The notes under the pieces were generated by a model. That model was not told the origin of the DNA. It worked only from the letters and a program-made list of their open reading frames with translations, and did not search any database. Both the position numbers and the translations under genes were made by a program. Below, one piece after another: positions 12,548 to 63,511 of a DNA stretch of 64,000 nt. The DNA comes from Ianthella basta (lineage: Eukaryota; Porifera; Demospongiae; Verongiida; Ianthellidae), in contig OZ025882.1 in the NCBI GenBank assembly GCA_964019415.1, forward strand, positions 5,953,012-6,017,011, written 5' to 3'. Position 1 is the first letter of the stretch; each line of letters opens with the position of its first letter.

Positions 12548-13198
12548 TTAGCACTTATTGTCTGGAAAGGCTGAGACTATATGGTAACCACCATCTTGCC
12601 AGCTGATGAATAGCTTGATCACCAAGTTCTCTTTTGAACAATTTGGGTATTTATAATTCTTACAGATGCTATCAATGTGACCAGTTGCCGTATGTTTCAC
12701 AACACAGCAACGCTTCTTTGCACCTGTGCAGTCTTTGTATACAGTAACAATTCGATCCACCAAGGATTGCTTTCCCCAAGATCGTGGAAAAAAGAATAAA
12801 ACACTTGTTTTATTTCGAGGGTAGTATTTGCCATCCCTTGCATGCCGTACCATTACATTTTCAGCTGCTGTTGTGTATGGACAGTTTGCAGATGGTCTAC
12901 CGAGATAGGTAACTGGACCAGCAATGTACGCACTTCTGGGATTTCTGCCACTGGGACGACTATGAAACCCTTCCACTTCGGTCTCACTACCATTGCCTTT
13001 AACTTCACCACAGAAAATGTGTGTTATTGCCACTGGTGGATCTGTCTTGCTGACATATTTTTCAGAGTCAAGTACAGGACTCCACTTGTTGCAGAAATAC
13101 CTGTTTAGGGACCTTTCCCACTCCTTCACACCATTCACCACAAGGATGTTCACCACAAACAAGAAGAGGATCATTTGGAGGCAGCAGCTGCTATTCAT
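12548..13198 (-). CDS. Secreted bacterial-type EndoU-like ribonuclease, paralogue A
   Basis: Intronless, 216 residues. A hydrophobic signal peptide covers residues 1-23 (ending VVNGV). The mature part is Cys-rich (C36, C63 and the C-terminal C216 among others), as expected for an extracellular, disulfide-bonded protein. Signature elements shared with the three paralogues downstream are CNKWSP, the first histidine in AITHIFCG (H60), the second in EGFHSRP (H79), FFFPRSWGKQ, LVIKLFISWQ and IVSAFPD (S209). In the Bac_EndoU family the catalytic core is two histidines plus a C-terminal Thr/Ser near a Tyr-Pro, which this layout matches with Phe in place of Tyr. Expected chemistry is metal-independent or Mn-dependent RNA cleavage leaving a 2',3'-cyclic phosphate. 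This is the most diverged of the four copies. Family assignment is from motif layout, not a search. Confidence 0.7.
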   Translation of the reverse strand: MNSSCCLQMILFLFVVNILVVNGVKEWERSLNRYFCNKWSPVLDSEKYVSKTDPPVAITHIFCGEVKGNGSETEVEGFHSRPSGRNPRSAYIAGPVTYLGRPSANCPYTTAAENVMVRHARDGKYYPRNKTSVLFFFPRSWGKQSLVDRIVTVYKDCTGAKKRCCVVKHTATGHIDSICKNYKYPNCSKENLVIKLFISWQDGGYHIVSAFPDNKC

Positions 13199-13426
13199 CT
13201 TTGGAAATATCAGAGGACACCTTCACACTCCTTCAGGTAATTGACAGTAATGTAACAACTACAGTCACGTTTGAGGCTGACTTTCGAGCTGGGGAGCAAG
13301 TGGTTGTCTTTGAGATGTATCCTGCCTGCTCACAAAGACAAAGGATGAATGTTTACCATATTTTTATGCTAACTCACATTCATGCAAAACTTTCTTTTGT
13401 CTATATTTGGTCATGTGTACATTATA

Positions 13427-13436
13427 CTATAAATAG
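13427..13436 (-). promoter_or_regulatory. TATA-like box conserved upstream of EndoU-like genes A, B and C
   Basis: The ten-mer CTATAAATAG (CTATTTATAG on the coding strand) lies 229 bp upstream of the gene A ATG. The same ten-mer lies at 16355-16364 (260 bp before gene B) and 18328-18337 (230 bp before gene C), each followed on the plus strand by GAACATTT or GACACCTC. I did not find it before gene D. The distance implies a 200-bp leader or a leader intron; a shared promoter copied with the genes is the likely reading. Confidence 0.4.
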
Positions 13437-13798
13437 AACATTTCAATGTGATGAATATAAAATAGGAAATTGCCATTGACCTAAGGGAACTACTTAGCTA
13501 AGTGTTAAGACAAGAGTCTAAAGATAAAAGAAATTGTCCAAAGTGGCTAGCTAATTATGCACTAATGTTGCACTAATGTAGCTATACGTAGCTATGATCC
13601 AAGGCTGATAACAGTAGCTATAGTATTTTGGTACATACATGAGAGAAAATGACCACGCATATGTAATCACTGCATACATTTGGCTGGACAACTCCTAGCT
13701 CTATTGATGATGTGTATAAGCATTGACTGTGACAGGTGTATACCTACAGTACATGTACTTGTGTATGCATGCCAATCATTTTACACTAGAATTAAGGT

Positions 13799-13899
13799 AT
13801 GGGTTGGTTCTCTAATACCAGCTTCACAACAGGGTTGAAAACCTTGCCAGGCAAGGTTTTCAACCCTGTTGTGAAGCTGGTATTAGAGAACCAACCCAT
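13799..13899. mobile_element. Perfect palindrome of about 50-bp arms
   Basis: The left arm begins ATGGGTTGGTTCTCTAATAC and ends AAAACCTTGCC; the right arm is its exact reverse complement with essentially no spacer. The right half plus its 3' extension (TGAGCCAGCTGAGAAGCCCT) recurs at 29038-29125 inside the ZNF207 gene, so this is a dispersed element, here as an inverted dimer. Confidence 0.85.
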
Positions 13900-13974
13900 T
13901 TCTGATGCTTGAGCCAGCTGAGAAGCCCTCACTTCATAGAATTAAGGTGCATGGCATTTGTGGCACTGTACATT

Positions 13975-14112
13975 GCCAGCTCTAAACCAGCCAGCCTCCC
14001 TGGCCCCAAATATAAAAACATCGCAATCTACCTCTGTAAAGCAGCCACCTCTCTAAAAAGGGTAAGTTAGAACTGGCCCACAGGCAGCTCTTATACAGGC
14101 TTCACTATACAT
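13975..14112. repeat. Dispersed repeat, copy 2 of 3
   Basis: Shares CCAGCCTCCCTGGCCCCAAAT, AATCTACCTCTGTAAAGCAG and GAACTGGCCCACAGG with 9402-9578 and 33770-33937. The left end is degraded. Confidence 0.7.
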
Positions 14113-14459
14113 GTACTGTATTTGTATAATACTGTACCCATGGATTGATGGCATTTATTAGTTATTATTGTACAGTACGTATATTATGCTAAGACCTGAT
14201 GGCTGTTGTACACAGTCATGGATGGTATTTAGTTAATGTCACCTTTACCAGTAGCCCAAAGCATCGTACTTGATACACTGTTGCCTGTATGGCAATAGTC
14301 TTGCTCAAAATGAATCACTGACCCACAAATATACATATTATCTTAGACAATAAAGATAGGGTATAATTGTAGCTGTTCAAATTGTAAGACTCAAAATCAG
14401 GGAACCCATCCAAAGGGTGGGTTTCTGGCTGGGTACCACAATAAATTTTGGGACAGAGT

Positions 14460-14640
14460 TGTACATGGCTAGTGGGTAGTTGCTCAAGCACTTGCGAAGC
14501 AGAAGTTCATGGTAACTCAGGACATTTCTGCCATGTAGGCCTTCATCAGCTGAAAAAGGCCTACGTGGCCAAAACGTCTGGAGTTACTGTGAATTTCTGC
14601 TATGCAAGTGCTCAAACAACTACCCACTAGCCACAATATG
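14460..14640. mobile_element. Inverted-repeat element with ~75-bp arms
   Basis: The left arm contains GGCTAGTGGGTAGTTG, CTCAAGCACTTGC, GCAGAAGTTCA, GTAACTC and GTAGGCCT. The right arm contains the complements AGGCCTACGTGG, GAGTTACTGTGAATTTCTGC, GCAAGTGCTCAAACAACTACCCACTAGCC. The short loop reads CATCAGCTGAAA. No coding capacity. Confidence 0.8.
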
Positions 14641-15213
14641 TCCAACGTAGCAATGAGTCTCTATGCTATCAGAGTTGTACATGCTTAATTGGATGAAACC
14701 AAAGCAGTGCAAGGATTAAGGATGCTACCACTTTAAAGGCACATGCATGTGCAAGAGTCAGTAGAACCCAGGGGATACTGTGGACAGGCAGTGATGAGTG
14801 CATGTGGGTGCATGCACTTATTTCTGCTGTTGCATGCAGTGTCATTACTTGTTTCCACTACTTACTATTGTTGTGGAAGATAACAGTAAGTGATGTCTGA
14901 TGGTAAAAGAGCCTAATTAATCTCACTTCAACTGCTCTTAGTGATAAAGTGAGTAGCTAAGTGCATGCATGCTTGCTTGGCTAAAACCTTTAGGACTCAT
15001 GCCAAAGTACACGCCTAATGAATTACCCTAGCACCAAAAAACAAGTCTGCGTATGCATGAACAACATCCAACCAAGATGCAAACTAATACTGTAAGTAAT
15101 GCATGCAGCAATTAACTGATCGAACACAGCTACATATGCAAACATTAGTCTACTTATATAATACTGTAGTGTTCAGTGTACGTATTATAGAACTGCACTA
15201 TGCACAGTCACGC

Positions 15214-15360
<147 letters not shown>

Positions 15361-15372
15361 TGCTACTGTTCA

Positions 15373-16095
15373 TCAAGCCCTGCAGGAGCAGCCTTCATCT
15401 GGAAAAGCTGTGACTACGCGATACTTGTCCTTATTATTTCTGTCCCTTCCTTGCCAGCGAAGAAAGATCTTGAATGCCAAATTTTCAATTGAGCAGCTTG
15501 CACCTGTGATGTTATAGATGTAATTCCTCATACAGATACCAGTCAATCTGTTATTCTGATCTGTATCCTTGACACAGTTCGGATTTTGCTGTCCATTTGC
15601 AGTACAAGTTTGAAACACGCGTGTGATATTTTGCACTATATCATGTTTCCCCCAGGCTGGAGGAAAAAAGATGAAAGTTCGATCTGGATCGGTTGTACGA
15701 GGAATGTAAGTGTTCAGCTTTGCATCTAGCACCTTGACATCCATAGCTCTCACCCTATATGGACAAATCTGCGTTGGATTTCCGAGAGCTACAGGTTTAC
15801 GAGATTTGGTATCAATGGTGGCACTGTTGGGATTCCTGTTGCCAGGGCGAGCATGAAACCCTTCAGCTTTAGGTTCATAACCGTCACGTCCACGATGGAT
15901 GGTAATCTGGCCACAGAATATGTGTGTTATTGCCACAGGTGGATCTGTGTTGCTTACATAAGCCTCATCTAGAGGACTCCACTTGTTGCAGTAGAAATCG
16001 TTTAAGTGCTTCTTCCACTCCTTCACATCAATCACCACAAGGATGTTTACCAGGATTAGGAGTAAGAGCATTTGGAGGCAGTGGTTGCTCTTCAT
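15373..16095 (-). CDS. Secreted bacterial-type EndoU-like ribonuclease, paralogue B
   Basis: Intronless, 240 residues, the longest of the four. A signal peptide covers about residues 1-23 (LLLLILVNILVVI). Core elements are CNKWSPLDEAYVS, H58 in AITHIFCG, H81 in EGFHARPGNRNPNSA, CPYRVRAMDVKVLDAK, FIFFPPAWGKH, CSIENLAFKIFLRWQG and VVTAFPD with T229. It ends in a Cys-rich tail (GCSCRA). It is very similar to paralogue D across the whole mature region (for example TTDPxRTFIFFPPAWGKH in both). Relative to A it has extra residues between the two histidines and before the C-terminal block. The product is probably an extracellular RNase; whether it acts in digestion, defence or self/non-self is not visible. 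Confidence 0.72.
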   Translation of the reverse strand: MKSNHCLQMLLLLILVNILVVIDVKEWKKHLNDFYCNKWSPLDEAYVSNTDPPVAITHIFCGQITIHRGRDGYEPKAEGFHARPGNRNPNSATIDTKSRKPVALGNPTQICPYRVRAMDVKVLDAKLNTYIPRTTDPDRTFIFFPPAWGKHDIVQNITRVFQTCTANGQQNPNCVKDTDQNNRLTGICMRNYIYNITGASCSIENLAFKIFLRWQGRDRNNKDKYRVVTAFPDEGCSCRA

Positions 16096-17402
16096 CTTTG
16101 AAATATATATCTGTGGACACCTTCACATGTACTCCTTCAGGTGATTGACAGTAAAGTAACAGCCACGTACAGTCAGGTTTAATTTGAGCTTGATTCGGAG
16201 TTGAGTATCGAGTGGTTGTCCTTGAGATGAATACCAGTGCACACGTACACAGTATATCCCGTCTGCTCACAAGATACAGTAAGGGTTAACTGAATGACCA
16301 TATGCCAACTTATTTGCAGAGCCTTCAAATTTTGTTTGCCCACTGACAGTTGTACTATAAATAGAACATTTCATAAGCACTGCTTAAGCTATCAGGCATG
16401 CAAGAGTACAATTTCATACTGTGAGAGAGATAAGATATAATGTACAAAGTGACTTAATGTAGAGCTGCTAGCTGTGATTCATTGCCAATAACATGCGCAG
16501 CATAGTGTTATGGCACATGAAGCAAAATGACCATGTCTACATCACATGCACACATGCATGCATGGACAACTCAATCCTGTGTAGCTCTTCAGACTTGTTT
16601 GATGGATGATTATATACTGATATGACGTTAGATGCAGGAGTCTGCATAACTGGACCTAAACAACCACCTCAACAACTATTGTCTGCATGTTCATTTGCCC
16701 TAGGCCCCAGAGAGCTCTAGGCAGCCCTGTGTCATTCATCCTGTTCCCGTGTTGGCCACTTCAGCTGACACACTGGTGGGGATTGCACCCATGGAGGGTG
16801 TATATGGGTTTCTGGCTGGTTAGCATGATAAAACTTTGGGGCAGAGTTTTGTTTAATTAGCTCTATATAACCAAAGCAGTGTGAGGGGCAAAGCAATGAT
16901 ACTGTAACGTTTTTAGCTACCACTTCAAAGGCACATGTGCAAGAATAAGTAAAAGCCCATGGGCTACTATGGAAGGACTGATGAGTGTCACTGTGCACTT
17001 AGTTTTGTTGCATGCAGTGTCATTACTTGTTTCCACTGTTAACTACTGTTGTGGAAGATAACACCAAGTGGATGACGCGTGATGGTACATAAAAAGAGCC
17101 TATTTAGAATCACCTCAACTACCCCTATAGTGATAAAGTGAGTAGCTAAGTGCAGTCATACATGGCCAAAGCTGGGACTCATGCACACTACAGTATATAC
17201 CTAATGGCTTATCCTAGCACTAGAAAACTAGTGTACCCGTAACATACAACCAAGATGCACACTAATATTAATGATGCAGCAACTAAACACAGTTAGGTGT
17301 GCAAACCTCAATCAATCTGTAAATATACTGCAGTGTTCACTGTATAGCTATGAACTTCACAATATGCAGTCTCTTGCACACCTAGCTGATGCTGCTGCAT
17401 GC
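16096..17402. other. Intergenic region between EndoU-like B and C
   Basis: The first ~270 bp is the putative promoter of B, including CTATAAATAG at 16355. The part 16850-17330 repeats 14690-15150 (shared blocks GCAGTGTCATTACTTGTTTC, TTGTGGAAGATAACA, GTGATAAAGTGAGTAGCTAA). Gene and 3' flank were therefore duplicated together. No further gene seen. Confidence 0.65.
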
Positions 17403-18098
17403 TCATCCATCACTGCAGTAGCAGCCAACATCTGGGAAGGCTGTGACTACACGATAGTGATTTCCTTGCCAGCTGAGAAAGATCTTAAATGCCAAGTCCT
17501 GCTTTGAACATCCTTGGTAGGTGTAATTCTCCTTGCAGATTTCACTAATGCGACCTTTTACGCGATCCACCTTGCAGCCATTCTTTCCGTCTTTCTCATC
17601 TTTACACTCATTGAATACAGAAATAATTTGGTTCACCAAACATGTTTTTGCCCAAGATGGTGGGAAAAAGATGAACTTTCGCTTCAGATCTTTTGAGCGA
17701 GCAATGTAAGAGCCATTCTTTGCATACAGTACTTTCACATCCCTAGCTCTCACCCTGAATGGACAATTCACCTCTGAATCTCCGAGAAACACAGCGGGGT
17801 GATCAATTGGAGTGTCAATCTTAGCACTTTTGGGATTCTTGTTGTCAGGACGAGCGTGAAACCCTTCGGCTTTAATTTTGAAACCATCAGTTCCGTAGTA
17901 GGTGTCAAGTTGGCCGCAGAAAATGTGTGTTATTGCCACAGGTGGATTTGTCTTGCTGACATAAGCCTCATCTAGAGGACTCCACTTGTTGCATTGGAAG
18001 TCGTTTAGGGGCTTGCTCCACACCTTCACACCATTCACCATGAGGATGTTCACCACGAACAAGAAGAGAATCATTTGGAAGCAGCAGTTGCTCTTCAT
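17403..18098 (-). CDS. Secreted bacterial-type EndoU-like ribonuclease, paralogue C
   Basis: Intronless, 231 residues. A signal peptide covers about residues 1-23 (LFLFVVNILMVNG). Core elements are CNKWSPLDEAYVSKT, H58 in AITHIFCG, H81 in EGFHARPDNKNPKSA, CPFRVRARDVKVLYAK, FIFFPPSWAKT, CSKQDLAFKIFLSWQG and VVTAFPD with T219. The short tail GCYCSDG keeps paired cysteines as in B. The region between the FFPP block and the C-terminal domain is Lys/Asp rich and differs from B and D, so this loop is the variable part of the family. It has the same strand and spacing as its neighbours. Confidence 0.72.
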   Translation of the reverse strand: MKSNCCFQMILFLFVVNILMVNGVKVWSKPLNDFQCNKWSPLDEAYVSKTNPPVAITHIFCGQLDTYYGTDGFKIKAEGFHARPDNKNPKSAKIDTPIDHPAVFLGDSEVNCPFRVRARDVKVLYAKNGSYIARSKDLKRKFIFFPPSWAKTCLVNQIISVFNECKDEKDGKNGCKVDRVKGRISEICKENYTYQGCSKQDLAFKIFLSWQGNHYRVVTAFPDVGCYCSDG

Positions 18099-19442
18099 CT
18101 TTGGAAATATCAGTGAATACCTTCACACTCCTTCAGGTAATTGACAATGATGTAGCAGCTACAGTCACGTTTGAGTTTGCTATGAAGCTGAGGATCAAGC
18201 AATTGTCCTTGAGATATGTACCGAGCCGTACCGTGAGAGTATCCAGCTGGTTCACAGACAAGAATGAATGCTACCTGTACTCTTATGCCAATTCACATGC
18301 AGCCTGCCTTATGTTCGGTGAGGTGTACTATAAATAGGACACCTCAATGTGATGAATATCCTTGACTCAAAAAGGCATAAGTGCTATTTAAACAAAAAGA
18401 CAAGCGCACATCCGTATACACCGTGAGAGATAACAGATAATGTACCAAGTGACTTAATGTAGAGCTGCCTCTTTACATTGCTTATGTTAGTGTATTATAA
18501 TACTTATAGTGTTTTGGGACATTGGGGACTTATGACCACATAATACCACTGCCTGCATGGATAATTCCTATAATAGCTCTTCAGACTTGTGATGAAGGAT
18601 ATGATAACTTTAAACGGTGCATATTTATATGCATTTTATTGTGCATGCAGGGAAGTGCTCCAGATGGTGGTTTGTGTAGCACATAATGTTATATTATGTA
18701 CTCATAGACGATGCATGCAGATGTGTAGTGTAGCAAGCATAGAGATGCATTGGTCCAGTATATATAATATTATGCATATACTTGCACTGCATATTGTATT
18801 ATACGGTGTGATCTGACAGGGCAATCACTTCAAGCACTTCTTATAGCTCAGTAGCTTGTAATATGAATGTTTAACAACCAATTCATTATTTATACAGTGA
18901 TGAGTCATATGAACACAGAACTGTAGGATCAAAGGTACACCATGTGGCAAGTTATGATTGGGAACAACTGTACAGCTGTGCTTATTTACTGGTATTTAAT
19001 GTGCTGTACACTGCACATCCATGGCATAGAACATAATGCATGATTAGCAAGCTACGTAATTCCCACCCCCTGGTACACATACGCAGTGAGCCCTGCACAC
19101 ACACGCACACACACACGCACACACAGTCACTACTATAAGTGAACAGCCAGGCTGTGACTATACAAGATATATACAGTAGCTGCCACTTGTTTGGCCAAGA
19201 AAGAATATCAGTGTTGTGCACACTTCAGGCAAAACCGTGACGAGCCATAGCCAGATGTACGTAGCATTAAGATTATCATTCATTAGTGACACAGTTAATG
19301 CACACTAATAATGAAAATTAATAACTAAACACAGCTAGGTATGATAAACACAATCAAAGGTATACTGTTAGTAGGAACGTACTGAACGGTATTCAGCCTC
19401 GCTTGTTCACACACACTAATTCTAACTGTTTATAGCACAACA
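18099..19442. other. Intergenic region between EndoU-like C and D
   Basis: Contains the putative promoter of C (CTATAAATAG at 18328-18337) and an AT-rich stretch without a supportable gene. A short CA-rich tract lies at 19095-19127. The last 200 bp resemble the 3' flanks of B and C (CTAAACACAGCTAGGTATG). Confidence 0.6.
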
Positions 19443-20120
19443 CTAGCAGGCAGTGTCTGGAAAGGCTGTGACTACAAGATAGTGATTCCCCTGCCAGCTT
19501 ACGAAGAGCCTGAACGCCAAATTATGATTTGAACAGTCGGGGTAGTTGTAATTCCTCATACAGATGCCAGTCAATCTGTTGTTCTGATTCATAGTCCTGA
19601 CACAGTTTTGATTTTGCTGTCCATTAGTGCAGGCCTGGAACACACCGATGATATTTTGCACTAGAACGTGTTTCCCCCAAGCCGGTGGGAAGAAGATGAA
19701 AGTCCGATTTGGATCGGTTGTACGAGGGACATAGGTGCTCCATTTTGCATCTAGCACCTTGACATCCATAGCTCGCACTCTATATGGGCATGTCCGTGGT
19801 GGATTTCCAAGGGGTACAGGTTGATTATTTCTGGTATCAATGATGGCACTGTTGGGATTCTTGTTGCCAGGGCGAGCATGAAACCCTTCAGAACTAACTT
19901 CATCACCATTGGCTCCATGATAGACATGAATCTGGCCACAGAATATGTGTGTTATCGCCACAGGTGGAGCTGTGTTGCTGATGTAAGGCTCCACTAAAGG
20001 ACTCCACTTGCTGCAATAGAAATTGTTTAGGTGGCCGCCCCACACCTTCACACCATTCACGACAAGGATGTTCAAAGCAAAAAAGAATAGGATCATTTGG
20101 AGGCAGCAGCTGCTATTCAT
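19443..20120 (-). CDS. Secreted bacterial-type EndoU-like ribonuclease, paralogue D
   Basis: Intronless, 225 residues. A signal peptide covers about residues 1-23 (LFFFALNILVVNG). Core elements are CSKWSPLVEPYIS, H58 in AITHIFCG, H81 in EGFHARPGNKNPNSA, CPYRVRAMDVKVLDAK, FIFFPPAWGKH, CSNHNLAFRLFVSWQG and VVTAFPD with T218. It is closest to paralogue B. It ends directly after FPDTAC, without the extra Cys-rich tail of B and C. It is the first gene of the array in transcriptional order. All four copies keep both histidines and the C-terminal Thr/Ser, so none looks like a pseudogene. Confidence 0.72.
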   Translation of the reverse strand: MNSSCCLQMILFFFALNILVVNGVKVWGGHLNNFYCSKWSPLVEPYISNTAPPVAITHIFCGQIHVYHGANGDEVSSEGFHARPGNKNPNSAIIDTRNNQPVPLGNPPRTCPYRVRAMDVKVLDAKWSTYVPRTTDPNRTFIFFPPAWGKHVLVQNIIGVFQACTNGQQNQNCVRTMNQNNRLTGICMRNYNYPDCSNHNLAFRLFVSWQGNHYLVVTAFPDTAC

Positions 20121-21552
20121 CTTTGGAAGTTGTGGACGCCTTCACGCTCCTTCAGGTGATTGACAACACAGCTACAGTCAGGAACTTGATCTGGAGCTGA
20201 TGAGGGCTGGGGGCTTCTGTGAGTCACTGTGTTACAGTATAGTTACAGTATAGATAGTCAACTGTGTGGTTACACTCAGGGAGTTTGCTGTTTTATCCCA
20301 GCACCTACTGCTGTGTATGCATAGTTATATACGGCAACTTACCCCCAAATGTAGGAAACGAGCAAGGTATAATACTGTATGCATACCCTCTTGGGTATTA
20401 GTGCCATGTATTATAACTCTGCATGCACATGTAAACTTGTTTATGGGTGATTTGTCCTACTGTACTATACTACAGATGCTGAATAGCTGGTTTGGCATAC
20501 AAGTCTATTCTCTATTGCACTTGAATAGACAAAGAAGACATTCAGAGAACAACAACTGCTTTCCTAGAGATAGCTAGGAAATTCAATTCAATTATTGAAA
20601 GCAATAGGCAAATTAAACACTGGAAAACTTGTTCAGACATTTTGGCCTTCATCAGTGAACTATCAAAACTTACAGGCACTGATGTATGAATACACTATAC
20701 GGCAGTCAGATGATGATGTGGTCCAATGAGGTACACAAGTACAGGAAGTCAGGGAAATACAAAAGGTGGTGAAAAAGGATGTAATTAGGAGCACACACAC
20801 AAAGATGGAAATAGTAACTAGTAGCTATAGTAACTGTGAACACAACACATTTAAAGTCACATGGTCAGTGAGTCCAACAGTGCACATAGAGTCCTAGCAA
20901 GGCGTCCCTGTCTTTACTGCAAAGGCCTGTTGATGCTGGATATAGCTACTAGGACACTAGCATGTGGTAAGTATAGGTGTGTGTGTGGGGAGGGGAGGGG
21001 GGAGGTGGGAGATGCATCAATGCCCATGGCCTTACATAGAGAGCTAGCTGATCTCTCCAAGGCCATGTATGAAGGCATCTGTCTGTTGCAGATATGCCTC
21101 AACACGTTTTCCGTGTTTTGGTTAGTGTTTCCAAGAACAAGAATTAAAATTGAAATGAGTCTACTTGGCTACTCAGGCTTTTATAGCATTAATGACTAGG
21201 TTAGTTCCTTGTCCAATGACGTATTCCATCACAGTGTTAGCTAGCTATTAGGAATGGGCACTGCAACTTCAGTATAACCACCCATGCCAAGCCCCTATGC
21301 ACTACACAGCAATTTTGCAGTTGCACTAGATTCAAGCTCACCACTTCCTGTACAGCAAGAGTCACTTATAGCTAGCTAGCTAGCTGGCTCTAAGTGTAAA
21401 CTTACTACTTGCATGACATCATTCCAATATATCTTTGGGCCATGTACATTGCAGTGCCTGCAACAGAGTCTGATGTTGAAAGTGTCAAAGTGCTCTGATC
21501 ACGTGATACAAAATTGCGCAATCTGTGTATTATCTTGACAACGCAAGACAGA
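20121..21552. other. Intergenic region between EndoU-like D and CBY1
   Basis: The two genes are divergent, so their upstream regions lie here. No supportable gene. The segment around 20630-20700 (TTTTGGCCTTCATCAGTGAA) resembles the dispersed GGCCTTCATCAGCTGAAAA core of the element at 14460-14640. Confidence 0.6.
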
Positions 21553-23067: not shown

Positions 23068-24232
23068 ACACACGCCACCAGTGCTGTGGTAATGGTAATG
23101 AGTAATTGCAACTGATTGTAATTAATTACACTTTTTCAGTAATTGGAATTTAATTGGAATTGAGATATTTCTGCTGAAGAAATTGTAATGGTAGTTGATT
23201 ACATTCTTGTAATTGATACCTGATTACACAATTACATTTCTCCCCTTTGGCTATCAAAACACTAGACTGCTGGAAGAAAAATCTAAAGATTACCCTACTG
23301 TTCAAACCTACAGTAGCTCGTCAAGCATTCTCCGTATCAGCTTGGAGCACCAAGCAAATTTTGACTGGGGAATATGGCACCCCCCCGGGAAGTTTGTCAT
23401 CCCTAGGGATTTAGGCATCACCTAGAAACACGGGGCAATGGCACTAAATCCCTGCACGCAATTACACGGAATTACATTCCTCCTCCTTGGCTACCAAAAC
23501 AGTAGACTGCTGGAAAAAATGTAAAGATTACCTTACTGTTCAAACCTAGCTCGTCAAGTATTCTCCGTATCAGCTTGGAGCACCAAGCAAATTTCACTGG
23601 GGAATATGGCACCCCCCAGAGATTTAGGCATTCCCCAGGAACTTTGTCATCCCCAGGGATTCAGGTATTCCCTAGGGATTTAGGTATTCCCTACGGATTT
23701 AGGTATTCCCTAGGGATTTAGGCATCCCCAGGAAAGATGGGGGCAATGGCACTAAATCCCTGCACGCAATTACACGGAATTACATTTCTCCTCCTTGGCT
23801 ACCAAAACAGTAGACTGCTGGAAAAAATGTAAAGATTACCTTACTGTTCAAACCTAGCTCGTCAAGTATTCTTCGTACCAGCTATGCCTGCACTAGTTGA
23901 GTGCATTTGGTTGGGCAGGCAAGACTTTGAATCCACTAAGATGTTGTTGCATGCTTCCAAAAGAGCTTGAAGCACTGCTATTCTGAAGATGAACTCCAAG
24001 TAAATGTAACTTTAATGTAATTGTAATCGTAATTGTAATTGCCTTCAAGTAGTTGTAATGGAAATTAATTACTTATAATATTAAAGTAATGGTAATTGAT
24101 TCTTAAAATAGCCAAGTAATTGTAATTGTAATTAATTACCAGTAAACTGTAATTACCACAACACTGATTGGGACACTGACACACACACACACACACCACA
24201 CACACACACACACGCACACACACTGCTAGAAC
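22476..24232. other. Intergenic region between CBY1 and CENPX
   Basis: CBY1 and CENPX converge here. After about 600 bp without clear features comes a (CA)n tract (22999-23070), then the hAT-like element (23079-24166) and a second short CA tract. No gene is supported. Confidence 0.7.
23079..24166. mobile_element. Non-autonomous hAT-like DNA transposon, about 1.09 kb
   Basis: The left end is CAGTGCTGTGGTAATGGTAA and the right end GTAATTACCACAACACTG, giving terminal inverted repeats that match at 14 of the first 15 positions. The CAGTG termini are typical of hAT elements. The subterminal regions are rich in TAATTGTAATTAATTAC. The interior has three tandem, partly decayed copies of a unit beginning AATTACATTYCTCC and containing AGTAGACTGCTGGAA (near 23230, 23470, 23775). 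There is no transposase frame. I cannot see a clear 8-bp target duplication; the left flank is a microsatellite. Confidence 0.7.
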
Positions 24233-38341: not shown

Positions 38342-38920
38342 CTAAGACTTGACCAACATGGCATCACTGATCTCCTTGGCAACCTGAGCCCCCACCAGAG
38401 CCTCCACCACGGCCAGTGCAAACTCAAAACAGGTACCAGGACCTCTGCTGGTGATAACAGTCCCATCCTTGCACACCCTGGCTTCTGAGTAGGCATGCCC
38501 ACCGTCTACGATTCGCTGCTTCAAGGACGGGTAGCTGGTGAGCTCCTTACCCTTGGCCACTCCATGAGCAACCAGAGACGTTGGAGCGGCACACACTGCT
38601 GCAATCAAGGAACCCTTTGCGTCCTGCTCAGCCAGTACCTTCTTCACCTTTTCGCTCTCTGCTAGCCTCTGTGCACCACCCAAGCCCCCTGGAAGGAGGA
38701 CCACGTCGTACGGTCCACAGCTCATGGCATCATCCAAGGATGTGTCGGGGACAATAACCACGTTACGACTGCACTTCACTGGGTCCTTACCCTCCAGACC
38801 CGCCAGGGTGACTACTATGTTTGCACGACGAAGAACGTCTGTGCTGATTACCGTCTCCATCTCCTCCGCCCCCGGAGCGAGGATGACGAGAGCTTTCTTT
38901 GGAGCAACACCGGCGGCCAT
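38342..38920 (-). CDS. PARK7: DJ-1/PARK7 protein
   Basis: Intronless here, 192 residues (189 in human). DJ-1 is a cytosolic and mitochondrial redox-sensing protein of the DJ-1/PfpI family, described as a glyoxalase/deglycase and chaperone. Matching motifs are [18 protein letters not shown] (with the conserved Glu next to the active Cys), [16 protein letters not shown], the nucleophile elbow [10 protein letters not shown] (Cys110) and [19 protein letters not shown]. The His region [10 protein letters not shown] is present. The C-terminus has only a short extension. Lack of introns contrasts with the vertebrate gene and could reflect intron loss or a retrocopy; the frame is intact and no poly-A tract is obvious. 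Confidence 0.96.
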
Positions 38921-39008
38921 CTTCTTGTCAACTGGTCCCGTTCCAACTTCGGTTTTATATTTAGATCAACATTTCACTCCGACCGGAAAACAGCTGGAAA
39001 GGTAGAAG
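38921..39008. promoter_or_regulatory. 88-bp divergent promoter between PARK7 and receptor copy 1
   Basis: The two ATGs face away from each other with 88 bp between, including CAACTTCGGTTTTATATTTA (a TTTATAT motif). Both leaders and the promoter must fit here. Confidence 0.55.
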
Positions 39009-43050
<4,042 letters not shown>

Positions 43051-44880: not shown

Positions 44881-45863
44881 TTTACTTCTTTGGATTAAAT
44901 GGCGGTTAATGTGTGTATTTACTTCCTAATTGGAAATGGGAATCGTGGGTCCGCCCGCTGTACATCGGGTGTAGAAGGCGCAAAGGATGTGTGTGTCCTC
45001 AGTTGTTTCCTACAGTGAGTATTAGTAGCAGGCTAAATGCAGTTCAGTTGCATGAGCTAGGAGATGTCCCATAGTCATGCATAGATCAATAAGAGTTACA
45101 TACATACATACATAGAAGTTAGACAGTACATATTAATCATCGTATGCTATAGGAGGTTCAAATTCTTGCATCCGTGATGGTGAGGAGCAGGCAGTCAGGA
45201 GTAGAAGGGAAACTCCTATACCAATCCCCCCTCAGGCACATAATGGAGGACCTGATTGAGGAGACGTTCAACTGACACCTCAGCTTTCAAATGCAGAGTG
45301 AATAGGATGTCCCTCCTACCTTAAGCAGGTACAGATTGAACGACAGAGAACTGACGATAGAAGCTAGTAAAATGCTTCCCACTACAGGATGAGACCACCT
45401 ACTACTAGTAGTAGAGACTGTTGGCGTCCAAATCTCCAAACTTTGCACTTCATTTTTGGGTGTATGCAGAATAATAGGTCTATCGCGTTAACCGACGATC
45501 GCGGGGAAGTTTTTGTCTTTGAACTATGGCTGGGACACTTGTACTGTCCCATGGACGCTCTGAGAATGCCAAGTGGGCCATACGGCAAGGAGCTGAAGTG
45601 TTTAAGCAGCGCCAAGTAACACGACTGCGTGCAATTTCTCAAACTAGTGGACATCGTTGCGCAGGTGCAAAATCGCTGCAAAATAGCATACCTACTACTA
45701 TAACTACTTATCCCATAAGGAGGTGACAACAACCCCTTGGGGTAGAATGCACCAAGAAGAGCGAAGAGGTACAGCGTCGGGGGATAAAGCCTCCTAGTTT
45801 ATTTTAACCGGGGGCCGGATACAAAATCGGGGGGATAGAATAAACCGTGACACCGGGGGTTTA

Positions 45864-45915
45864 GTCTCCCGCGCGCAGCCCCTCCCCCGCGAGGGAGGGG
45901 CTGCGCGCGAGAGAT
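45864..45915. promoter_or_regulatory. GC-rich hairpin upstream of receptor copy 2
   Basis: Arms of 23 bp (left 45864-45886, right 45893-45915) around a 6-base loop, core GCGCGCAGCCCCTCCC / GGGAGGGGCTGCGCGC, with two mispairs near the base. It ends 17 bp before the ATG. The equivalent before copy 3 is a perfect palindrome. Copy 1 lacks it. It could act in DNA or leader RNA, or be the end of a mobile element. Confidence 0.6.
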
Positions 45916-45932
45916 TTGGTTCGAGACTAGAG

Positions 45933-51984
<6,052 letters not shown>

Positions 51985-53797: not shown

Positions 53798-54782
53798 TTT
53801 ACTTCTTTGGATTAAATGGCAGTTAATGTGTGTATTTACTTCCTAATTGGAAATGGGAATCGTGTGTCCGCCCGCTGTACATCGGGTGTAGAAGGCGCAA
53901 AGGATGTGTGTGTCCTCAGTTGTTTCCTACAGTGAGTATTAGTAGCAGGCTAAATGCAGTTCAGTTGCATGAGGTAGGAGATGTCCCATAGTCATGCATA
54001 GATCAATAAGAGTTACATACATACATACATAGAAGTTAGACAGTACATATTAATCATCGTATGCTATAGGAGGTTCAAATTCTTGCATCCGTGATGGTGA
54101 GGAGCAGGGAGTCAGGAGTAGAAGGGAAACTCCTATACCAATCCCCCCTCAGGCACATAATGGAGGACCTGATTGAGGAGACGTTCAGCTGACACCTCAG
54201 CTTTCAAACGCAGAGTGAATTGGATGTCCCTCCTACCTTAAAGCAGGTACAGATTGAACGACAGAGAACTGACGATAGAAGCTAGTAAAATGTTTCCCAC
54301 TACAGGATGAGACCACCTACTAGTAGTAGAGACTGTTAGGCGTCCAAATCTCCAAACTTTGCACTTCATTTTGGGTGTATGCAGAATAATACGTCTATCG
54401 CGTTAACCGACGATCGCGGGGAAGTTTTTGTCTTTAAACTATGGCTGGCACGCTTGTACTGTCCCATGGACGCTCTGAGAATGCCAAGAGGGCCCTACTG
54501 CAAGGAGCAGAAGTGTTTAAGCAGCGCCAAGTAACACGACTGCGTGCAATTTCTCAAACTAGTGGACATCGTTGCGCAGGTGCAAAATCGCTGCAAAGTA
54601 CGTAGCATACCTACTACTATAACTACTTATCTCATAAGGAGGTGACAACAACCCCCTGGGGTAGAATGCACCAAGGAGAGCGAAGAGGTACAGCGTCGGG
54701 GGATAAAGCCTCCTAGTTTATTTTAACCGGGGGCCGGATACAAAATCGGGGGGATAGAATAAACCGCGACACCGGGAGTTTA

Positions 54783-54833
54783 GTCTCTCGCGCGCAGCCC
54801 CTCCCCGCGAGGGAGGGGCTGCGCGCGAGAGAC
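54783..54833. promoter_or_regulatory. Perfect 23-bp-arm hairpin upstream of receptor copy 3
   Basis: Left arm 54783-54805 (starting GTCTCTCGCGCGC), loop CGCGA, right arm 54811-54833 (ending GCGCGCGAGAGAC). The arms are exact reverse complements. It ends 23 bp before the ATG. Confidence 0.65.
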
Positions 54834-54856
54834 TTGGTTCGAGACTAGGAAAGAAG

Positions 54857-61303
<6,447 letters not shown>

Positions 61304-61401: not shown

Positions 61402-63511
61402 ATGGCTGCCAGCACAGTCAACTCTCTGAACGCTTTGAGCAGCTTCGCTCAAGCCATCAGTAAAGCAGGTGAGTTGATCTGCTCCTTGATAACTTGCTCC
61501 TCAATCCCTTATCATTGAAATGCACAATATAACGCTCATTTATGGTGTTGTTACGTATAGACGGGACGGATGATGACGGCATTTGCCAGACATTCTCCAA
61601 GATTGTGGCAACCCAGGAAAGTATGAGCGAAAAGAAAGAGTCGGGAGTTGACCGAAACCACTTCTTGAACGTAATGGAGCATGCCTTTAGAGATACATTG
61701 AAGAAGAAGGTAAATGAAGAATGTAATACGTATTTCATTCTAACGTTATAGCATTGTACATCTCTGCTGGAGAAACGGTGAATTTCACTGTATGTGTGTC
61801 ACCAGCCCCAAGGTGCACAGTTGTGGTATGCAGACTAGTCCAAGAGCCCATTACATAGCTAGTACCATATATGAACTCCTGTGCAGTCGCAACAATCTGA
61901 GCAGCTGCCTTCTGCATGATGTGGATCTAACTGTGCAAGTGTTTTAATCCCACATCTATATATGTTTTGGTAGTAAGCTATTGTGCCCATCTGTCTGTCT
62001 GTCTGTCTGTCCAGATGCAGGGTGGCACTGAGATGCGTGTCTCCTGTGAGCTTATTCTCTGCTCCACTCGCTGTGCAGAGAAAAAGGTTTGTCCATACAG
62101 CACACCCTTTGTCCTCCTGAGTGACATTTGCGACAGCGTGACTTTGGACCGCTGTGAGGATGTGTTCACATTTGTCGAAGAGAATATCTCAGTTTGGACC
62201 AAGCCTGCATTCTTCAAAGTTGGGAGGAATCAGATGCTGCGAATGTGCAACGATTTGCTCCGGCGGCTGTCAGCATCACAGAGTACCGTATTCTGTGGGC
62301 GTATCCAGCTATTTCTGGCCCGGCTCTTCCCCTTGAATGAAAAGTCTGCGCTCAATCTTATGAGCAATTTTAACCTAGAGAATATCACCGTCTACAGTGA
62401 GAGTCCCAGCACAGCTAGTGAAGGTGGCGATGAAAAGATGGACACTTCTTTGGAAGCATCCTACACATTCAGTGACGGAGTAGTGGACTATAATCTATAT
62501 GAGAAGCTTTGGTCAATGCAGGATTTCCTTCGAAACCCTACTCAATGCTTTGAGAGCAAACAGTGGGAGATGTTCACAGCTTGTGCGCATGATGTGTTGG
62601 CTGCGTTTGATGGATACAAGCTTGATAATGTGGCAAGCAGTGGCAAGAGGCCACCAGCAGCAAGAAGCGCAAAAGCCAAAGTTGCCTCGAGCGTGGGGAA
62701 ATCCGTATCCAAATCCCCGACTTGCAAGAGTAACATTGATAGCCACTACTTTGCGAAGTTCCTAACAAGCGTCAAGCTGATGAATCTGCAGCTGAGCGAC
62801 TGTCACTTCCGCAGGCACATTCTCATCCAGCTGCTAATCCTCTTTCAGTACCTCACTTCTGACGTGAAGTTTAAAGCGTCGACACACTTGCTTACCACTG
62901 AGCAAGATCGCTGGCTGACAGAGACCACGGAGATGGTGTATCGATTGCTGGACGAGACCCCTCCTGATGGGGTCACTTTCTCCTCGTACATCAGGCACGC
63001 TCTCACACGTGAAGAAAACTGGATCTCGTGGAAGAATGACGGCTGTCCATCACTGGTCCGTTCACAGGTGGCGGAGGGAGGGAGTGACGAGGTTGGCCTT
63101 CTGAAGGAGAAGCGAACACGGCGACTGGGAGATGTTGTTGTGAGCAACAAGAAGGCCAAAAGGATGGACCTTGGCAGCCCCGAACTAACAGAGCTGTGGA
63201 ACAAATATCCAGACAGCCTGCAGATGTGCTGCTCTACAGAACGACGATTTGTTCCACAAGTGGGTCCTTTCTTGGAGGAGGCAGCCATGCAAGCCGACCC
63301 CAAGGAGCAGGTCGAGGAAGAGTATAAGCACGTTAAGAGCCCTAACTTTGCCTTCCAGGCACTGAGACTGCTATCGCGACACAGCCCCTACTTCTTTCAG
63401 AGCAATGCAGCCGTGCAGATCAAGGCTCTGCCAGACTTCCTTGAAGGGGTCGTTATTCAAACAAGCAAAGATCTCAAAGCAGCTGCCACACCAAATGGCA
63501 AGCCGTTGTAG
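61402..63511 (+). CDS. THOC1: THO complex subunit 1
   Basis: THOC1/HPR1 is a core subunit of the nuclear THO/TREX complex, which couples transcription to mRNA export and limits R-loops. Exons: 61402-61468, 61561-61709, 62015-63511, with phases 1 and 0, giving 570 residues. Long stretches match the animal family: LRMCNDLLRRLSASQSTVFC, GRIQLFLARLFPLNEKSALN, NFNLENITVY, DYNLYEKLWSMQDFLRNPTQ, YFAKFLTSVKLMNLQLSD, FRRHILIQLLILFQYL, TREENWISWKNDGCPS, LTELWNKYPDSL, and ALRLLSRHSPYFFQ near the end. It stops soon after that block, so the C-terminal death domain of vertebrate THOC1 is absent. A basic Ser/Ala/Lys insert (about residues 290-325) is specific to this protein. It starts 98 bp after the kinase gene stop, on the same strand. 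Confidence 0.96.

Follow-up and report, generated by a model that had tools for sequence, protein, structure and literature searches.

Polymorphic-toxin EndoUs are C-terminal domains of long proteins and are accompanied by immunity genes. Here, we compare these and other ribonucleases (RNases) with four EndoU-like genes, c1 to c4, that lie in tandem in a 64,000-nucleotide stretch of the genome of the sponge Ianthella basta (contig OZ025882.1; the whole stretch is hereafter called the window). For bacterial-type EndoU, the accessible part of PMC3482391 gives a catalytic set of H, H, [SNT], [SNT], and in XendoU it pairs the second His with a Ser (S229 of 2c1w). The vertebrate RNase A family is presented in the available portion of PMC11275989 as a vertebrate-only cluster that possibly arose from an EndoU gene or from a captured prokaryotic RNase. 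The accessible text of PMC13189344 reports that an RNase of Pseudomonas aeruginosa, which carries a signal peptide and has the related RNase A fold, cuts animal ribosomal RNA. Its proposed catalytic residues are a single His plus Lys, Thr, and Tyr, and we use it here solely as an example of a small RNase with a leader and a fold of this class that acts across species. In the literature searched, we found no account of an EndoU of the bacterial type in any animal, sponges included, and no description of the group of free-standing secreted bacterial EndoUs compared below.

The original prediction described c1 to c4 as intronless, secreted, bacterial-type EndoU nucleases in an animal genome, derived from a captured bacterial effector domain that gained a signal peptide and expanded. 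We arrive at a somewhat different account, to which we give about an even chance: c1 to c4 and a fifth copy elsewhere in the genome would be secreted single-domain bacterial-type EndoU endoribonucleases that descend from an old secreted bacterial EndoU and were diversified by tandem duplication.

Four tandem EndoU-like genes and a fifth copy

The open reading frame (ORF) list, which covered frames of at least 100 residues between 9 and 24 kb, confirmed four paralogs of 216–240 residues, all on the minus strand and at the predicted positions. The first, c1 (12548..13198, 216 residues), has a hydrophobic N-terminal leader, the HIFCG and EGFHSRP histidines, FFFP, and VSAFP, while c2 (15373..16095, 240 residues) has H58, H81, R133, FFP at 143–145, T229, and F231. 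The remaining two, c3 (17403..18098, 231 residues) and c4 (19443..20120, 225 residues), were recognized as ORFs with matches to the EndoU family PF14436 that lie below its cut-off. Each frame runs from ATG to stop with no internal stop (224–249 residues from stop to stop), and it is on these open frames that the predicted lack of introns stands. The proteins share 49–70% identity in pairwise comparison. Their alignment bears out both the ordered signature (VAITHIFCG, EGFHxRP, FFP, and [TS]AFP) and the variable loop after the FFP block.

Genes c2, c3, and c4 are spaced by ~2.0 kb, as after tandem duplication. A fifth copy is found on contig C12 (6866454–6867110; the array is on C15, at 5965559–5973131) as a single open frame, 43–45% identical to c1 and c2, and together with the array it supports the predicted expansion. 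Protein searches that used c2, c1, or a remote family member as the query revealed no sixth copy in the 209-Mb, 96-contig genome, and a family search of the genome scored three candidates and reported one. The N-terminus of each of c1 to c4 includes a single strongly hydrophobic stretch (Kyte–Doolittle mean 2.8–3.4, against a later maximum of 1.5–1.6), which supports the claim that all four proteins are secreted, a prediction based on hydrophobicity.

Family assignment and fold

All four proteins matched PF14436 (EndoU_bacteria) in hmmscan searches against Pfam: c1 with 27.0 bits (E 6.2e-6), c2 with 39.8 bits (E 7.1e-10), c3 with 23.1 bits (E 1e-4), and c4 with 23.6 bits (E 7.2e-5). Relative to the curated cut-off of 25.3 bits, c1 and c2 are above and c3 and c4 below, but with E ≤ 1e-4 throughout, the matches are well beyond chance. 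PF14436 was also the sole family for 58/58 aligned family members at E ≤ 1e-3, and none of the 58 matched the XendoU family PF09412 at that threshold. As the original prediction held, these genes are distinct from XendoU, which the genome encodes separately: at least four XendoU stretches lie within 2.3 kb on contig C4, as in one intron-split gene.

Searches of the protein database returned 12 relatives with c2 alone, 69 with an 11-row alignment, and 20 (four of them new) with the 58-row alignment. The relatives include protein P0068 from the freshwater sponge Ephydatia muelleri (E 6.6e-7). Four database relatives come from contigs of one and the same length (265,473) and three from contigs of another (1,011,231), so arrays are probably present in other species too. 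Eight relatives (P0012, P0015, P0021, P0023, P0026, P0032, P0037, and P0053) start with MQE(L/F) and have no hydrophobic leader, which suggests an upstream signal-peptide exon in other species.

The predicted structure (predicted local distance difference test score, pLDDT, of 90) had human EndoU as its top match, and its four best fold matches were human EndoU, Nsp15, and two contact-dependent inhibition (CDI) toxins, in line with an EndoU/BECR fold. This link was visible by fold comparison only, since a single-sequence search of solved structures and a profile search returned no EndoU. Vertebrate RNase A chains were absent from the VIA-align listing, an absence that excludes nothing. PADLOC gave no matches for five proteins, NCBIfam gave a single weak match, far under its cut-off, for seven proteins, and Rfam at gathering scores gave no match within the window. 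Altogether, we are highly confident that c1 to c4 belong to the EndoU family.

Free-standing secreted EndoUs in bacteria

One database match, P0073, is from a Desulfobacterales metagenome-assembled genome (MAG). A scan of genome contigs with a P0073-led alignment confirmed 42 bacterial loci among 87 candidates. With animal-type patterns alone, no bacterial relative was confirmed among 38 pattern matches in genome contigs; the viral contigs gave 27 pattern matches, none confirmed, and the phage records gave no match. With translation started at the first ATG, the proteins have 166–256 residues at 40 of the 42 loci and 284 and 433 at the other two. The EndoU domain forms the C-terminal end of these proteins, and a strong hydrophobic stretch lies ahead of it at 40/42 loci.

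These loci (L008–L049) represent widespread small free-standing secreted EndoUs from Granulosicoccus, Desulfobacterales, Acidobacteria, Aminicenantes, Thalassospira, Pseudomonas, and others. No NCBIfam model matched P0073, the single group member scanned. At two of six loci examined (Thalassospira and Asaia), a small gene lies directly 3′ of the EndoU gene; neither small gene matched a Pfam family. Another EndoU group (L088, L089, L092, L093, L095, L099, L101, L102, L108, and L109), with frames of ~280–440 residues and the motif H(I/V)FCGE...GG(L/F)H...T(F/Y)YPDA, which includes the same HIFCG block, occurs in genomes of the phylum to which the cyanobacterial locus belongs. PF14436 was present in 32/291 genomes sampled from that phylum and in 9/282 (eight above the cut-off) from the phylum of the myxococcal locus.

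For residue counts and phylogeny, we aligned 106 domains over 145 columns: 56 animal-type, 36 secreted, 5 toxin-type, and 9 cyanobacterial. The animal-type rows are the four window proteins plus 52 of 73 database proteins, whose animal origin we infer; the 21 omitted were window copies, fragments, near-duplicates, the E. muelleri protein, and P0073, which is represented by L008. The secreted rows comprise 30 of the 42 loci and six from other genomes. Among 40 further loci (L080 and L087–L125), 25 matched the secreted-type profile and 20 were used, a selection biased against distant toxin domains.

Active site and cysteines

H58 and H81 are invariant in 58/58 aligned members. Both histidines and Ser/Thr229 occur in 106/106 domains, and 106/106 have an aromatic residue (Phe, Tyr, or Trp) at position 231, though these two counts are biased toward a match because the domains were cut out by motifs favoring active-site letters. 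A basic residue (R/K) occupies position 133 in 55/56 animal-type domains.

The residues before FFP weigh against a conventional active site. Ser/Thr stands immediately before FFP in 36/36 secreted, 4/5 toxin-type, and 0/9 cyanobacterial domains, and one residue earlier in 35/36, 5/5, and 0/9, respectively. Among animal-type domains, only 6/56 have it directly before FFP and 5/56 one residue earlier, and c1 to c4 have it at neither place (0/4). With the pre-FFP residue taken as the second hydroxyl of the H, H, [SNT], [SNT] set, this hydroxyl is missing in 50/56 animal-type domains, c1 to c4 included; S229 of XendoU (2c1w) may be the counterpart of the Ser before FFP. Thus, the claim that the catalytic residues are kept holds for H58, H81, and S/T229 and fails for the hydroxyl pair before FFP. 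The animal-type active site has probably been remodeled, and because the pre-FFP Ser/Thr is gone in all four proteins, activity is likely rather than certain; from the residues, we consider it rather probable that c1 to c4 are active RNases.

Alternatively, the EndoU fold may have been retained and catalysis lost, giving a secreted RNA-, uridylate-, or surface-binding protein (lectin- or opsonin-like, or a self-marker) in which the histidines serve binding or folding. The missing pre-FFP Ser/Thr would fit such a protein, as would the fast-changing C-terminal half, where nonsynonymous divergence (dN) is 0.15–0.57 versus 0.19–0.44 in codons 25–105. We think it unlikely, however, since H58, H81, and S/T229 in 56/56 and a basic residue 133 in 55/56 animal-type domains have been kept over long divergence, which argues for catalysis.

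Four cysteines recur in the animal-type domains. C61 is present in 56/56 animal-type, 18/36 secreted, 9/9 cyanobacterial, and 0/5 toxin-type domains, and C188 in 55/56, 15/36, 9/9, and 0/5, respectively; C111 (46/56) and C164 (51/56) occur in none of the 50 other domains. This pattern suits folding in the secretory pathway, and the four could form one old and one new disulfide.

Source of the animal-type domain

Profile–profile comparison matched the animal type to the 36-row secreted set with E 5.9e-32, to the five toxin-type domains with 2.8e-18, and to the nine cyanobacterial domains with 3.1e-11, the small size of the latter two sets lowering their scores. Two positions N-terminal to the first His are commoner in secreted than in toxin-type rows: S48 (48/56 animal-type, 27/36 secreted, 0/5 toxin-type, and 3/9 cyanobacterial) and P52 (51/56, 32/36, 2/5, and 0/9, respectively). 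Based on the profile match and on the hydrophobic stretch before the domain, which is common to both, we prefer a free-standing secreted bacterial EndoU over a toxin domain as the candidate source. From such a source, no signal peptide need have been gained.

The original prediction favored capture of a bacterial effector domain. In this toxin route, a CDI or LXG polymorphic-toxin domain would have been captured and fitted with a new signal peptide, to act as an extracellular antibacterial or allorecognition weapon. Polymorphic toxins belong to the same Pfam family, CDI toxins are among the best folds of the predicted model, and LXG toxin domains from Priestia and Listeria plasmids are 34–41% identical to P0073 over 66–71% of P0073. 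In addition, the accessible part of PMC4811931 indicates that sponge-associated Pseudovibrio (strain AD26) can carry an EndoU toxin domain. Nevertheless, we regard toxin capture as improbable: the profile match is stronger to the free-standing secreted EndoUs (with the toxin set limited to five rows), 40/42 of the secreted bacterial proteins are already hydrophobic at the N-terminus, S48 and P52 point the same way, and c1 to c4 are single-domain proteins. The bacterial-type membership that was claimed stands, while an origin from a toxin domain with a gained leader is not supported, the closest bacterial profile being that of leader-bearing secreted EndoUs.

The tree is limited by a short alignment, 40/103 unresolved inner branches, and an arbitrary root. 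Constraining the animal type to one clade gave a better tree than the free search (approximately unbiased test, p-AU 0.822), and the bacterial rows, secreted and toxin-type alike, group together outside that clade (support 100). Trees joining the animal type to the secreted rows (p-AU 0.604) or to the toxin rows (p-AU 0.557) are both allowed; because both bacterial sets group apart from the animal type, the tree favors neither source. Since the 56 animal-type domains fit one diverse group, we read any transfer as old, or the sharing as ancient, with no recent capture.

Ancient sharing could also mean that the family descended vertically from an ancestor deep among the eukaryotes and was never transferred into animals. 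An animal-type clade that is diverse and, under the arbitrary root, not nested in a bacterial group fits this scenario, which we nonetheless rate as low as toxin capture: E. muelleri is the one identified eukaryote among the matches, a weak test given that the collections are poor in eukaryotes.

Upstream leader, sequence exchange, and selection

A conserved leader precedes three of the genes on the minus strand. Upstream of c1 (13199..13240), the alignment shows CTGAAGGAGTGTGAAG and CCAAAG before the ATG; the same leader lies upstream of c3 (18099..18140) and c4 (20121..20160), identified by alignment and by exact genome match. Just upstream of the ATG, CTGAAGGAGYGTGARG has three exact occurrences genome-wide, before c1, c3, and c4. 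The leader of c2 is similar with an insertion within CTGAAGGAGYGTGARG, and the fifth copy has a looser variant. We suggest that CTGAAGGAGYGTGARG may act as a promoter or leader element common to these genes. Positions 13103–13275 (c1) and 18003–18175 (c3), which span the leader and the signal peptide, are 88% identical over 173 bases, although the two proteins are only 52% identical.

In the 23-codon signal region, synonymous divergence (dS) is 0.29 for c1–c3 and 0.27 for c1–c4, compared to 0.81 and 1.60 in the C-terminal half. The signal region thus matches far more closely, as though 5′ ends had been exchanged by gene conversion (likely for c1 and c3), which would also distort whole-gene ratios. 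The original prediction further held that selection acts on the surface rather than on catalysis, a contrast that was not borne out. Whole-gene dN/dS by NG86 ranges from 0.28 to 0.59 and is below 1 in 10/10 pairs; by YN00 it is below 1 in 8/9 computed pairs, with c1–c3 at 1.22, and dS is high in many of the pairs compared.

Host genome context

The genome yielded 34 Wnt matches, and because of these we take it to be an animal's, as predicted. Pfam also identified THOC1, a DJ-1 family gene, and a reverse-transcriptase fragment within the window, which presumably includes a ZNF207-like gene as well. The array therefore sits among genes unlike those expected if the assembly had picked it up from contaminating bacteria or a symbiont. 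Sponges do carry many bacteria, and the genes are intronless open frames, but their guanine-plus-cytosine (GC) content of 0.43–0.47 is near the 0.42 of the surroundings, and the scan of genome contigs with animal-type patterns confirmed no near-identical bacterial sequence, the 42 loci reached through P0073 being distant relatives. In addition, the upstream leader is common to the array and to the fifth copy, which on C12 adjoins an exon-split gene that we take to be queuine tRNA-ribosyltransferase. We consider contamination hardly credible.

THOC1 (61931–63511, plus strand) and the DJ-1 family gene (38342–38965, minus strand) each match Pfam nearly end-to-end in a single open frame, so the intronless state alone is no mark of foreign origin here. 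Three closely similar genes on the plus strand (stop-to-stop frames 39006–39929, 45798–46694, and 54758–55447) start M(M/L)FLQI(L/F)SCLALVVCA with a hydrophobic leader, contain TVTSESGRVLCTEKDRIRNIV, and run into a long CA repeat; the first matched no Pfam family. CA repeats also follow c1, c2, and the fifth copy. However, 18.6% of random window points have one within 350 bases, and we dropped them as an array-linked feature since such repeats fill the window. A direct repeat of 144 bases (23432–23575 and 23740–23883, 98% identity) lies beside shorter degenerate repeats. Elsewhere, a series of same-strand Wnt matches within ~35 kb (C16:1991483–2026924) suggests a tandem Wnt cluster.

Proposed function and comparison with known systems

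In the account that we favor, a free-standing secreted bacterial EndoU would have entered the animal line, probably that of sponges, long ago, and the acquired gene would then have diversified by tandem duplication. H58 and H81 would supply the general base and acid that act on the 2′-OH of RNA, assisted by R133 and T229/F231, in an RNase A-like, metal-independent transphosphorylation that leaves a 2′,3′-cyclic phosphate. C61, C111, C164, and C188 would form disulfides in an extracellular or phagosomal setting. Because of secretion, duplication, and the cysteine-rich design, we infer that RNA of engulfed or invading microbes, or of food, would be the favored target, in a role akin to that of the vertebrate RNase A cluster. 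A microbe-directed or digestive role remains a tentative proposal, to which we give somewhat less than an even chance.

Among known bacterial systems, the free-standing secreted EndoUs are by profile the closest to c1 to c4: they are small single proteins with a hydrophobic N-terminus (40/42), an FFP block, NTAFP, and a motif like WSxTxPxVNxTHIFxGEINxxGKxVGFHSRPGGxDP, and are found in Granulosicoccus, Desulfobacterales, Acidobacteria, Thalassospira, Pseudomonas, a cyanobacterial MAG, and others. The animal type differs in mostly being without the Ser-Ser/Thr pair before FFP, in its extra C111 and C164, and in mostly having Q instead of E at position 63 and E instead of V at position 78. Polymorphic-toxin EndoU domains (the CDI domain CdiA-CT of STEC_O31 and LXG toxins) share the Pfam family, the His-His-Ser/Thr layout, and the BECR fold, whereas c1 to c4 lack a long delivery protein, being 216–240 residues in 224–249-residue stop-to-stop frames. 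Animal XendoU/ENDOU (PF09412) has the superfamily fold in common, but no PF09412 match was found in the 58 members, and this genome's XendoU is a separate gene on C4.

The vertebrate RNase A family would work in a like manner, its clustered genes encoding small RNases that are secreted and rich in cysteine, but it is a different sequence family and, in the available portion of PMC11275989, confined to vertebrates. It is possible, though we find it doubtful, that the sponge genes are an independent counterpart of that cluster, built from a secreted bacterial EndoU: diversifying, disulfide-stabilized, extracellular or phagosomal RNases with a remodeled site lacking the pre-FFP Ser/Thr, used by a filter feeder to kill, digest, or discriminate bacteria. 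If so, they would be candidate effectors in the dealings of sponges with the bacteria that they feed on or harbor, and an early animal line would have taken a secreted RNase of bacteria into its own service and expanded it to a multigene family, a development parallel to the RNase A cluster. With a second such case, the idea that RNase A came from an EndoU or a captured prokaryotic RNase would become testable by comparison.

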